Shown: piece by piece, positions 23,800 through 29,700 of the stretch
Position numbering within the stretch: position 1 is the first letter of the stretch
Layout of the letters: each line of letters opens with the position of its first letter
Assembly (NCBI RefSeq): GCF_963259705.1
Contig: NC_081842.1
Location: 183,896,349 to 183,960,348, forward strand
From: Myotis daubentonii
Taxonomy: Eukaryota; Chordata; Mammalia; Chiroptera; Vespertilionidae
DNA: 64,000 nucleotides
Direction: 5' to 3'
Made by a program: the position numbers and the translations under genes
Notes under the pieces: generated by a model
What the model saw: the letters and a program-made list of their open reading frames with translations, nothing else
Told to the model about the DNA's origin: nothing
The model's database searches: none

Positions 23800-26700
23800 A
23801 CAAGACTGATGCTTCATATTTTATTTCCTCTCTGCCCTCCCACCCCACCCTTGGTGATGGTTGTACCCATTTGAGCATTTTTGAGCACAAGGCCATAAAT
23901 AAGTCTTAAAACAGGAGCAGAATTCTTGTTTAAACAGGAACAGAAGGGGATTTAGCTTCAAGGATAATATAACGGTGGTGCAGTAATGGAAGCTGCCCAG
24001 ATCTGGTGGACAATGCATAGAAGACTTAGAATTCATGGAACATCTGTCCCCCCAGCCACCGTAATCCCCCAAACCCCACTCCCACCCCACCCCCAATTAA
24101 TAGTGTTAACAAAAGCTTAATCTTCCAGTTCTAAAGTGCAAATGACTTGGTATGACTGCTGTTGCAACAGGTCTGAACAGGAAAAAAACACGAAGTCCTC
24201 TGTCTATGCGATGTTTTCCAGAATATAAAAGATGAGTTCCATGACGATGGGTCCCTCACTGAGCTGGCAGGCCCCTCCATGGATCACTGGCACCAAAGCG
24301 CTGTCCAGGTCATTCATGTACTGCGAGGGAAGGGGCTGGCCATTGCTCCCTGCTTGATAGCCAACCTATACCACAGAGAGAAGGACGACAGGTTACTGGA
24401 TAGAGCAGCTCCCTCCAGAGAGCTGAGGGCCAAGGAGGCTGAGCAGGAAGGAGATGGGCTTCCTGGCCATGGGCTGGACACACAGCAGTTAACACAAACT
24501 TCTCTTCCCTAAGCTGTCATTTTTCATCCTGTCATTTACTCATCCTGACCCTAACACGTGGTAGCTGTGAAACCTTGGTCTCTTAAGACACTTAACCTGT
24601 TAAGGTCTTAGTTCCCCCAGAAGGGACTGAGGTGTTAGGGAGAGGCACAGAATGTCAGAAATAAAACCTAAGCCTATAGTTGTGAAAATTAAAATGAGAA
24701 CTATACTGAGTATAACTCCCTAGCACAGCAGGAACTGAACACTTGTTCTGTCAACCACTGGGCCCCACACCATATTTTGAGCATCTACTAACACAGAGAT
24801 TCAAAGATGAATGGAACAGGGCCCTGGCCATCAAGAGGCCCACTCATCAGTGAAAAATTATTTTTTAATTGTTTTATGTGAAGTAACTCCAGCCGGTACC
24901 ATTCGACAAAGAACCATGATACCTCATTTAAATTACTCTGCTATGCTTGGTATAGCATGGGGAAAGACCTTAAGTAGAAAACACACACTTCTTGATTGAT
25001 GACTAGTTAGGAAATGGAGCCAGATCCATAACCATCCACATTTTCCCTAATGATAACACAACAGCATCAAACAGGAACACTGGGACATGTCTCAGGGATC
25101 CAAAATCCAAAAGAAATGTACAGGCATACCTCATTCTGTTGTGCTTTGCTTTACTGTGCTTTGTAGATACTGAGTTTTTTAAAAATTGAAGGACTGTGGC
25201 AACACTGCATCGAGCAAGTCTATCAAGCACCATTTGCTCACCTAATGTCTGTCCCATTTTGGTAATCCTAGAAATATTTCTAACTTTATTACATTTGTTA
25301 TGGTGATCTTCGATCAGTGATCTTTGATGTTGCTTTGTAATTATTTAGGGGTGCCACAAACTGTACACACATAGGACTACGAATTTAACCAATAAATGTG
25401 TGTGTTCTGACGGCTACAATGACTGGCCATTACCCCATCTCTCTTCCTCTCCTCAGGCCTCCCTAGAGAGACAACAATATTCAAATTAGGCCAATTAATG
25501 CCTTCTAAATGTTCAAGTAAAGGGAAGAGTCTCACATCTCTCACTTTAAACCAAAAGCTAGAAATGAACAAGTGAAGAAAGCACATTCAAAGCTCAGAGA
25601 GGCCAACAGCTAGGCCTCTTGCACCATACAGCCAAGTTAATGCAAAGGAAAAGTTCTTGAAGAAAATTAAAAATGCTATGCCAGTGAATACCAATGCTTA
25701 TTGCTGATATGGAGAAAGTTTTAATGATCTGGATCAGGGGTGGGCAAACTTTTTGACTCGGCCACAATGGGTTCTTAAACTGAACCGGAGGGCCGGAACA
25801 AAAGCATGGATGGAGTGTTTGTGTGAACTAATATAAATTCAAAGTAAACATCATTACATAAAAGGGTACGGTCTTTTTTTTTTTTTTTTTTTTTTTTTTT
25901 AGTTTTATTCATTTCAAACAGCCGGGCCCGGCGGGCCATAGTTTGCCCACCGCTGGTCTAGACCTACTACTCAGAAAGACTCCTTTTAAAATATTGCTGT
26001 TCACTGACATGTATCTGGTCACCCAAGAGCTCTGATGGCTGTACAATGGGTTAATGTTTTAATGTCTGCTAATGCATCCATTATTGGTCAAGAAGTAATT
26101 TAGACTTTCAAGTCTTACTTTTTAAGAAATACATTTTGTATCTGCCATAGATAAGAGACTGTTTTGATGGTTCTGGACAAAGGAAATTGAAAATCTTCTG
26201 GAAAGAATTCACCATTCCAGGTGCCATTAAGAACATTTGTGATTCATGGAAACACTCAGAATATCAACATTAACATGAGTTTGGAAAAAGTTGGTTCCAA
26301 CCCTCATGCATGACTTTGAGGAATTTAGTGGGGGAAATAACTGCAGATGTGGTGGAAACAGCAAGAGACCTGGCATTAGAAGCGGTGCCTAAAGGCGTGA
26401 CTGAACTGTTGCAATTTCATGATAAAACTTTAATGGATGAGGAGTTGCTACTTATGCAAAGAAAGTAATCTATCCCTGGTGTGAAAACTTGAAAGGCAAC
26501 AAAGGATTTGGAGTATTTCATAAACTTAGTTGATGAAGCAGTGACAGGGTCTGACAGGGCAGACTCCAATTCTGAAAGTAGTTCTGTGGATAAAACGCTA
26601 TCAAAGAGCATCACACGTCACAGAGAAATCGTTCGTGAAAGGAAGTCAATCATCAGCTCCATTATTATCTTATTTTAAGAAGCTGCCACAGCCCACCAAT

Positions 26701-29700
26701 CTTCAGCAGCCCCTCCCTGAACAGTCAGTAGCCATCAGCACTGAGTCAAGACCCTCCCCCAGCAAAAAGATTATGATTTACTGAAAGCTAGAATTTTTTT
26801 TATCAATAAAGTATTTTTTAAATATATTTTTTATTGATTTCAGAGGAAGGGAGAGAGAGAAACATCAATGATGAGAGAGAACCACTGATAGGCTGCCTCC
26901 TGCACACTACTGGGGATCAAGCCTGCAACCCGGGCATGTGCCCTTGACTGGAATCAAACCCGAGACCTTTCAGTCCTCAGGCTGACACTCTATCCACTGA
27001 GCAAAACCAGCCAGGGCAATGAAGTACTTTTTAAGCAAGGTGTGCACATTGATTTTAGACATATTACTACTGAACACTTAATGAAAGGGCGAGTCGTCGC
27101 GGGGCCTGACCACGCTGCTGGTGGCCTCGGGCACCGACTCCCCAGCCCACGGCGGGAGCCCGGCGCAGGCTGCCACCCGCCCGCCACCCCCGGAATGGAC
27201 CCACGCGGCAGCAGCGGCAGGGCGGGTGCCCTCTCCCGAGGAGATAGTGGAGGCAGCGATTGCCGGCGCCCCTGGGAACGAGACGGAGGACGTGGACTTC
27301 CTGCCTGGGCTGGAACTGGTCGATCTGCTGGACCCCCAGCAACCGGACTGGCCCCTGGAGCCCGGGCTCAGCTCGCCCTGGGGGGCGGCTAGGACTGCGC
27401 CCTCCATCTTGCCCTGGGTCCTCCATTTTTGGGGCAGCCGCCATGTGCTCAGGAGAGTGCCTTCTTCCCGGAAGCCCAGGCCCCTGCTGGCCACGCCCAG
27501 GATTTCTTTAAACTAACCAATGACAATCAGGGGACGTGCGCGCCATAGAGATGACCACATCCTGTGTACCAAGACCCGACTTGGGCCTGGCCACTCGGCG
27601 GGGCCCACAGTCCCCTCCCCTGCCGTTACTATAAAACCCACAATCCCATCAGGCCTCGCTCTCTCGGCCACTGGGCTACCGTTGCATCGGTGAGTGTGGT
27701 CGGGGAGCCGAACTAGTTCGAGATGAAGGACTCTTCGCTTTTGCATCGGACTGACGGGCTCCCTGGGGGTCCTGGGAACCTTGAAATCTGGGCACAACAT
27801 AAACAGACTACAGTACAGTGTAAATGTAACTTCTATATGCACTGGGAAACCCAAAAGTTCATGTGACTCACTTTACTGCAGTATTCACTTACTGCTGTGG
27901 TCTGGAGTGGAACCCACAATATATCTGAGGTATATCTTGTAGAGAGATTAGATGCTAGGCCATGGGAAAGAGGCAATGGGATGAGGGACTGGGGGAGAGT
28001 GGGGCACATGTGCTAAGAATGGATTATTGCTGCCTGGCTGGGATGGCTCAGTGGTTGAGTGTCTACCTATGAACCAGGAGGTCACAGTTCTATTCCCAGT
28101 CAAGGCACATGCCCGGGTTGTGAGCTCTATCCCCAGTGGGGGGGCATGCAGGAGGCAGCCAATCAATGATTCTCTTTCATCACTGATGTTTGTATCTCTC
28201 CCTCTCCGAAATCAATACAAAATTTTTTTAAAGTGGATTATTGCTACTAACAGCACCAAAAAATCTGAGTAAGAAAGGGAGAGAAGCTTGACTATAGGAG
28301 ACGTGAGCTGACAGGGAATGAGGAAATAGCTCAAGTCCCATCTACTAACAAACATGGAAATGTTCGCAGTAAGAAAACCGTAAGGAGTGGGAGCTGCAGA
28401 GGCCAGTCAGCAGAGGCCTGCTGTGGTCAACAGGACAAAGGACAGCTGGGCCCTGCTCTCTAAGGGCAGAATGACTCCTGAAGGGTGGGACTGAGGAGTC
28501 TCAATGGGCAGCATCGATATCATTCACACAGGGGTGGCGGGTCTTCACAACACCCTTCTCCTAACCCTAAAAAGAAAACCAAGTCCTTGGAACACTTTCA
28601 GGTGAGGAAGCCAAAGTGCAAATGATTCAGGGTCTGATCAAACAGCACAGCAAGGTGTAGTTTTAATAGAGGGAAGGCCTGCCCTAACCGGTTTGGCTCG
28701 GTGGATAGAGTGTCGACCTGCGGACTGAAGGGTCCCGGGTTCGATTCCAGTCAAGGGCATGTACCTTGCTTGCAGGCACATCCCCAGTGGGGGGTGTGCA
28801 GGAGGCAGCTGATTGATGTTTCTAACTATCCCTCTCCCTTCCTCTCTGTAAAAAAAAAATAAAATATGTTTTAAAAAAAACAGAGGGAAAGCCAAAGTGC
28901 TATATCTGGTCAGACCCAGGGTCCAAAGAAAGGCCGAGTTGATGCAGGGAAACTCACATGTTGGAAAACAGAAACTGACCAACTTCCAAGGCCAGCTTCA
29001 GAGGCTGCCTCAGAATCTCTTACCTGATCTGAGTCCAGTGTCACACGAAGTCCCAGCTTAGTCATTCCATCTTCCTTCAGGAGCTTCAGGTGGGGACAGA
29101 GAGCAAGGCAAAAAGCCTTGGCTATGTGCTCGGTCAGCCGGCTATGATCTGCTGGATCACTCAGGCAACTGTGCTGGTCATCATTTTCTAGGAAAAACAC
29201 CTGTTGCCCGAACATAAGAGACTTAACCTTGTGCCCAGGAGATTGGGAAGAAACAAGTGTATCAGCTCACTGTGCATGAGCACCCTGACCCACAGAGATG
29301 TGCAAAAAGACCTGACAGGGTACCTCAAAGTCCCTGGGACAAAAGGGGGACACTAACATCTTACATCCAAGAAACAATCTCAGTCTCTGCATCTACAAAA
29401 TGGTAGCAGCAACCTGCCTATTTCCCTGGAAGCCATAGTCAGGGTCATCCTGGTACAATCTACTCAAAAAAGGCTTACATTTTGCATTGTGCATGTCTAA
29501 AAGGTAATTCCTGTATGTGGACGATTTTCTTAGGAACTGATCTTAGAATCTAAGAGAATGGCTCCTATAGCTTAGGTGACCCAAACCCTTCATGTTACAG
29601 ATTACTTATAGAAGGGAGGTGATTCACCCAAGTGTACATAAGGATTTAGAGACAGAGACGGGGTAAACCCAGAATCCAGGTCTTCTGTCTCTTATCACAG

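Follow-up and report, generated by a model that had tools for sequence, protein, structure and literature searches.

A gammaretrovirus-like LTR family of a Myotis-type bat in which the upstream part of U3 derives from the host gene CREBZF

Introduction

How does a piece of a host gene come to lie inside the control region of a retroviral element, and does it do anything there? Retroviral capture of host genes is usually regarded as an addition between the LTRs that yields protein. In the window (the whole 64,000-nucleotide stretch of DNA analysed here), the original prediction read a TG...CA unit at 27082..27799 as an ERV1-type LTR that had taken part of the bZIP gene CREBZF into its own U3, with a one-off chimeric insertion or a recombined provirus as alternatives. 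We consider it very probable that the unit belongs to a gammaretrovirus-like family in which the upstream part of U3 was replaced by CREBZF sequence, presumably captured by template switching and then fixed in the LTR.

Results

The window's genome (2.13 Gb, 121 contigs) was searched with the full LTR, and the best 40 of 2172 first-look candidates, at 89-100% identity, were all fetched as loci L001-L040. Further queries were the promoter/R/U5 half (27405-27799; best 40 of 2167, of which 20 were already in hand and 20 were newly fetched), the CREBZF block by itself (best 40 of 653) and a CREBZF-less block of the type found in locus L060 (best 40 of 43). The figures 2172, 2167, 653 and 43 are first-look candidates and not copy counts, and since only the best 40 per query were scored, the samples lean towards close relatives of the window LTR.

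The predicted unit is present where it had been placed, starting with TGAAAG and finishing with ACAACA, and is single-copy within the window. Its outer borders coincide with the ends of a family: among the 40 best full-LTR matches the left end recurs (within 3 edits) in all 40 and the right end in 39, being missing in L009. The 4-bp duplications looked for just outside the unit are found as ttaa and taaa flanking 27082-27799, although imperfectly, with one mismatch. The clean TG...CA family ends, the proviruses that carry such LTRs at both ends and the gammaretroviral domains described below uphold the ERV1 assignment, and the unit at 27082-27799 represents a solo LTR from a gammaretrovirus-like family of endogenous retroviruses in a Myotis-type bat. 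Its features are listed below; L072 is the CREBZF gene of the same genome, and the motif names in the viral U3 (YY1-like, CCAAT, TATA) are those that we take to apply.

27078..27081, + strand: left target-site duplication ttaa, 3/4 bases equal to the right copy taaa
27082..27799, + strand: solo LTR (U3-R-U5), gammaretrovirus-like (ERV1), with CREBZF-derived U3, delimited by the ends of fetched copies
27082..27093, + strand: retained viral left end TGAAAGGGCGAG, the same 12 bases that open CREBZF-less LTRs
27086..27107, + strand: CREBZF upstream piece, 201-222 bp before the ATG, 21/22 bases matching L072:688-709
27104..27218, + strand: CREBZF coding sequence, about codon 4 to codon 42, 105/115 bases matching L072:920-1034
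27204..27381, + strand: CREBZF coding sequence downstream of an internal deletion, ending at about codon 131, 159/183 aligned positions matching L072:1120-1302
27382..27390, + strand: right CREBZF/virus junction, a G run, from comparison of the gene with chimeric and CREBZF-less LTRs
27391..27659, + strand: retained viral U3, by motif scan and similarity to the CREBZF-less L060
27404, 27423 and 27437, + strand: YY1-like motifs CCATCTT, CCATTTT and GCCGCCAT, in that order, by motif scan
27517 and 27630, + strand: CCAAT and TATAAAA in the retained viral U3, by motif scan
27660..27799, + strand: R and U5, the boundary placed from the TATA box; in proviruses the primer-binding site lies directly 3'
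27800..27803, + strand: right target-site duplication taaa, paired with ttaa at one mismatch

Rfam gave no match at gathering scores in 26000-29000, and Pfam none in the window's CREBZF frame. A PDB match to 7onh (E 2.6e-5 summed) was set aside, as it consists of weak matches repeated along a designed repeat protein. Two sequences flank the LTR at about 26810-27020 and 28030-28235 of the window, and both look like Ves SINEs.

The source of the upstream block is the host's own CREBZF. The predicted protein match is real, the frame at 27106-27396 aligning with CREBZF of Myotis myotis (E 8e-30), Desmodus (2e-25) and Pipistrellus (6e-16), but the CREBZF-derived part is not confined to coding sequence: it begins at about 27086 and includes a piece from 201-222 bp upstream of the ATG. 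The genome's own gene lies at C10:31720521, where L072 holds an intact 352-codon frame with its ATG at L072:910 and is 97% identical to CREBZF of Myotis myotis and 82% to that of Pipistrellus over the aligned region, which places the genome in or close to Myotis. Against this gene the window DNA scores E 1.7e-61 and 1.4e-43, and the alignment proposed in the original prediction for measuring divergence gives 87-95% identity. At the DNA level, LTR copies match L072:688-709, about 880-1036 and 1118-1302, so that the aligned extent reaches from 222 bp before the ATG as far as about codon 131 and fills roughly the first 300 bp of the LTR in sense orientation. The region that gave rise to 27086..27107 is 5'UTR or promoter-proximal CREBZF sequence, and this 22-bp piece may lie outside the CREBZF mRNA. 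As CREBZF is present across mammals and other vertebrates, the direction of transfer was from host to virus, and the reverse route from LTR to gene is ruled out. The 3.5 kb surrounding CREBZF contain no match to the viral half of the LTR (best E 0.17). With no GT-AG-like gap to mark what was captured, a source in RNA and one in DNA look alike here.

The chimeric LTR was found as a multicopy family in its own genome, in line with the many copies that the original prediction called for. Target-site duplications among the 40 best full-LTR matches are perfect over 4-5 bp in 29 and one base off in 4 (the window's included); one copy is without the right end, and six have no duplication at the single LTR. 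Among these six, L034 pairs as 5' LTR with the 3' LTR L042 in one provirus, and a GCAAG duplication flanks the pair; L024 and L025 lie directly behind the 3' internal sequence of that type and its purine tract; the others are L008, L038 and L039. L025 (G000:C24:421233) and L024 (C24:16698628) have the same LTR and the same flanks on one contig, and represent a large duplication or an assembly duplicate. The block is also present in 39/40 copies picked by the promoter/R/U5 half (19/20 of the new ones), and 17 of the 20 newly fetched copies have perfect duplications. The chimeric junction, predicted near 27395, does recur in many copies, although it maps to the G run at 27382..27390. Capture into the LTR itself, copied on insertion, is borne out by this shared junction, by the duplications and by the presence of the block in both LTRs of eight proviruses, whereas a one-off chimera and a single recombined provirus are excluded by the family and by these proviruses. 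Across 38 aligned copies, mean pairwise K2P is 0.102 in the block and 0.063 in the rest (0.044 and 0.035 outside CpG), and indels vary within the block. AATAAA, a usual though not defining signal, occurs in R of 0/38.

The block-only query yielded, among its best 40 of 653 candidates, seven pairs of hits 3.2-4.0 kb apart on the same strand, which are proviruses, with the CREBZF match in all 14 of their LTRs. The two LTRs differ by 0/723, 0/672, 2/700, 0/721, 2/721, 2/718 and 1/706 substitutions, with 0, 3, 0, 0, 2, 5 and 8 gap columns in the same order. Duplications flank six of the seven, one of them within a TA repeat and hence not conclusive. The sequence TTTTGGGGGCTCGTCCGGGATT, which we take to be a primer-binding site of the tRNA-Pro type, follows the 5' LTR in four of the proviruses and a two-base variant follows it in the other three; a purine tract, AAGGGGGGAA or AAGGGGGGAT, precedes the 3' LTR in all seven. 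LTR pairs that differ at 0-2 sites indicate that the family was active very recently. At a rate of 2.7e-9 substitutions per site per year (given in the part of PMC4643047 consulted) the seven insertions would be at most about 0.5 million years old, with the caveat, raised in the same source, that identical LTR pairs can also stem from gene conversion. An older provirus, L034/L042, has the block in both LTRs as well, at a K2P of 0.074 and with 33/53 differences at CpG.

The young lineage may itself be recombinant. Compared with four older CREBZF-bearing LTRs, the young LTR L087 is 96-99% identical in the 120 aligned columns next to the junction on its right side and 83-89% in the last 204. Its promoter insertion (CTCCACCC or close to it) also occurs in 6/8 CREBZF-less LTRs aligned, and its R/U5 is no closer to CREBZF-less LTRs (74-90%) than to the older CREBZF-bearing ones. 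We read the young lineage as probably the same block and adjoining U3 recombined onto a differing promoter, R and U5; faster change of the R/U5 part is a possible alternative for L087.

The captured sequence carries several deletions. Relative to L072, by alignment offsets, the common form is without 177 bp between GGGGCCT repeats, and GCGGC-type repeats border a second loss, of 97 coding bp (94 bp in L012), which leaves this form frameshifted after about 45 codons. The subfamily of the window has lost a further 37 bp between GCCT repeats, and with them the start codon; copies without this deletion retain ATGAGGCACAGC. The 37-bp deletion is present in 7/38 aligned copies and absent in 31/38 (split support 0.96), L009 and L018 standing outside this alignment and both beginning as the 37-bp-deletion copies do, and it is found in 20/20 copies fetched by the CREBZF-block query. 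It is later than the two deletions common to the inspected copies.

The single open frame described in the original prediction proved accidental, being the product of a loss of 8 bp beyond the common 97-bp internal deletion in the window copy. At that deletion the frameshifted length class comprises 30/38 copies and the window's frame 3/38. Long frames are cheap in such GC-rich DNA, as 192/1000 shuffles open more than 130 codons. In the second block, non-CpG variants read in the CREBZF frame divide into 12 nonsynonymous and 3 synonymous among those shared by at least two copies and 26 and 15 among singletons, set against 296 and 73 possible changes; shared variants are thus not depleted of amino-acid changes. 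Exact ATGAGGCAC is present in 28/38 copies and opens a frame of at least 139 codons in 17/38, mostly a shifted one. Since the common form is frameshifted and the young lineage has no start codon, the block is not a gene. Judged by its sequence, the captured piece shows no sign of protein expression (frameshift; young-lineage start codon lost), and no conserved U3 open reading frame of the MMTV sag type was found.

What the block replaced can be seen in CREBZF-less relatives. L060 (G000:C16:5713430-5714827) shares the first 12 bases and is 94% identical to a CREBZF-bearing copy in its right half, with about 245 bp of unrelated GC-rich sequence in the middle, where the CREBZF block sits in the family. 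This join of an old-type left half to a family-like right half marks L060 as either the nearest CREBZF-less relative or a recombinant, and not necessarily an ancestor. The loci compared were L073-L080 (L073 being the place of L060) and L101-L110, in which no CREBZF match was found (0/8 and 0/10). The right halves of L073-L080 are 79-94% identical to the window in the six that aligned whole and match piecewise in L076 and L078, and the seven loci other than L073 all have perfect duplications. CREBZF-less LTRs that open with TGAAAGGGCGAG are L060, L074, L075, L077, L102 and L104.

Both junctions can be followed in these comparisons. At the left end the old type reads TGAAAGGGCGAG followed by ACCTCAACC, the gene GGCGAGGGCGAG followed by TCATCGCGG, and the chimera TGAAAGGGCGAG followed by TCGTCGCGG, the crossover being hidden within AGGGCGAG, an 8-base stretch that virus and gene share and that forms the end of TGAAAGGGCGAG. 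At the right junction the gene's CTCAGCTCGCCC passes through the G run into viral GGCTAGGACTGC. The old block, delimited in 10/13 CREBZF-less LTRs (3 could not be delimited), measures 231-306 bp with GC 0.74-0.76, 1-3 GC boxes and a CpG o/e of 0.55-0.76; the blocks of the seven young proviruses measure 300-305 bp with GC 0.75-0.77, 2-3 GC boxes and a CpG o/e of 0.78-0.82. As old and young blocks measure alike, the swap was like for like in length and composition, and the capture replaced about 230-300 bp of existing, equally GC-rich U3 rather than adding to it. The prediction that the piece brought a GC-rich block upstream of the promoter therefore does not stand: the replaced U3 was equally GC-rich (74-76%), with no compositional gain.

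The interiors point to a non-coding element with gammaretroviral kin. In the older CREBZF-bearing provirus (locus L041) the integrase end matches MLVIN_C (E 6.6e-31). A CREBZF-less element at G000:C12:15648200-15657750, both ends of which were located with the CREBZF-less block, contains Gag_MA, Gag_p30, RVP, RVT_1, RNase H, rve and MLVIN_C in separate frames. L117, the interior of one young provirus and the only young interior examined, has longest stop-to-stop frames of 87 codons in sense and 108 in antisense, and hence no autonomous coding capacity; its 3' part has the older provirus' integrase end and downstream region in common. The interior filler (about 746-3231 of L041 and 1-1280 of L117, both reverse-complemented) has no long frame and no match to the gag-pol pieces of the C12 element, and could be a second capture. 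The non-coding CREBZF-bearing provirus was presumably moved by the proteins of relatives.

Discussion

A single capture event, which we infer, could have proceeded as follows. During minus-strand synthesis, reverse transcriptase would have jumped from viral U3 to a co-packaged RNA containing CREBZF, copied towards the 5' end of that RNA and jumped back at AGGGCGAG, beside the end of U3. Reverse transcriptase jumps typically occur at short repeats, and the 8 shared bases at the left junction are as expected for template switching. Slippage at short direct repeats, during capture or later, would account for the deletions. As every replication cycle places a copy of U3 at either end of the element, the CREBZF piece would then be fixed as part of every new insertion.

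Recombination at the DNA level, for instance by integration of a provirus or gene conversion near CREBZF, is an unlikely substitute for template switching, though one to be taken seriously: the captured stretch reaches 222 bp upstream of the ATG and may there be untranscribed, and such an event could leave similar junctions, which are all that the recombination route is read from. Yet the two outer junctions and the three deletions all coincide with short repeats or the G run, and no stretch of the 3.5 kb surrounding the gene matches the viral LTR half (best E 0.17). The chance that the locus is a one-off chimeric insertion, a processed pseudogene hit by an LTR or a fortuitous GC-rich similarity is negligible, given the recurrence of one junction in many copies that each have their own target duplication, and the E of 1.7e-61 to the gene. 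We likewise regard as very improbable, though less so, that the U3 piece is a captured gene whose N-terminal CREBZF-like product came from the 3' LTR, comparable to MMTV sag, which is likewise encoded in U3. The 31/38 copies without the 37-bp deletion, the 28/38 with exact ATGAGGCAC and the 17/38 with a frame of at least 139 codons would suit such a protein, but against it stand the frameshift after about 45 codons, with 30/38 copies in the shifted length class, the start codon deleted in 20/20 block-query copies, the occurrence of such frames in 192/1000 shuffles and the lack of depletion of amino-acid changes among shared variants.

Whether the block, captured by template switching as we prefer, has any effect is a separate matter. 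GC boxes are found in the block in 38/38 copies (mean 2.1, against 0.5 downstream), but the old block also had them, so a gain of promoter strength is not implied. The likeliest effect, if any, would be in cis: an upstream stretch kept while its sequence changed, for example away from host silencers. We put this at somewhat below an even chance, its odds being lowered by the GC-rich block that CREBZF-less LTRs also carry. Even chances, by our estimate, go to the block being a neutral passenger that rides along without effect on expression or silencing, a rival to the cis role only, and at least as likely as escape from silencers of the old U3. A passenger would fit the broken frame, the variable indels of the block, the shared variants of the second block, which are at least as rich in nonsynonymous changes (12/3) as its singletons (26/15), and the same GC content and GC boxes in the replaced U3. 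On the other side, the block is kept in 20/20 block-query copies and in three more provirus pairs, though the block was itself the query. A more specific proposal, that the element owes its present success to trading its U3 enhancer stretch for CREBZF's CpG-rich 5' portion, which would shield it, we hold to be improbable. Under it, zinc-finger or small-RNA silencing aimed at the block would also strike CREBZF; if true, CREBZF-like blocks would now be scattered through Myotis genomes with the needed GC-rich upstream sites kept.

The family has partial parallels. Oncogene-transducing retroviruses are single isolates with a host gene placed between their LTRs, in most cases so that its protein is made; there too a piece of a host gene was captured, probably by template switching, but here CREBZF replaces part of U3 in a multicopy germline family. 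Polytropic endogenous murine leukaemia proviruses likewise have a foreign block fixed in an endogenous gammaretrovirus U3; to our knowledge, that insertion has not been traced to a host coding exon. VL30-type retroelements are non-autonomous, non-coding and gammaretrovirus-like and need a relative's proteins, as inferred for the CREBZF family, and we know of no CREBZF-derived U3 among them. In the part of a VL30 study consulted, Crebzf is only listed as the neighbour of one VL30 copy (PMC4859993). MMTV sag and sag-bearing endogenous retroviral LTRs, as described in the portion of PMC4667437 consulted, also have extra U3 sequence, which consequently lies in each LTR of a provirus and survives in solo LTRs; sag, however, is a conserved coding gene, whereas the CREBZF piece is host sequence with a broken frame. 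In the CREBZF family a host exon and its upstream DNA lie inside the control region, are inherited by every insertion and occur in proviruses with near-identical LTRs. Swapped and unswapped LTRs in one genome, with the donor gene known to the base, amount to a natural experiment in which the effect of the swap on transcription and silencing is directly measurable.

A candidate kin of the CREBZF-LTR family is MLERV1, a gammaretroviral family of vespertilionid bats (grouped with felid FcERV-gamma6 and pangolin MPERV1) with more than 1600 solo LTRs in M. lucifugus, according to the part of PMC4643047 consulted. The two are alike, by description only, in being Myotis gammaretroviral endogenous retroviruses with many solo LTRs. 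In the consulted text of that paper, an envelope-less MLERV1 subfamily is reported to have amplified with many species-specific insertions, MLERV1 LTRs are aligned with felid and pangolin ones, and the word CREB does not occur in the main text (PMC4643047). In the open literature (subscription papers being outside our scope) we found no account of a CREBZF-bearing LTR, and no open paper in which CREBZF and Myotis come together.

The evidence on range comes from Myotis. Protein look-ups with two LTR frames, which cover predicted proteins only, returned four distinct proteins; Myotis is the source of three and an ENA contig that of the fourth. P0121 and P0123 of Myotis davidii, both named CREB/ATF bZIP transcription factor, have the LTR-type internal deletion, and P0121 continues into the LTR tail; P0124, an uncharacterised protein of Myotis myotis, begins like the LTR left end with the 37-bp deletion. 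All three gene models look like copies of the CREBZF LTR annotated in error, and the LTR would thus explain two wrong CREB/ATF bZIP gene models in Myotis davidii.
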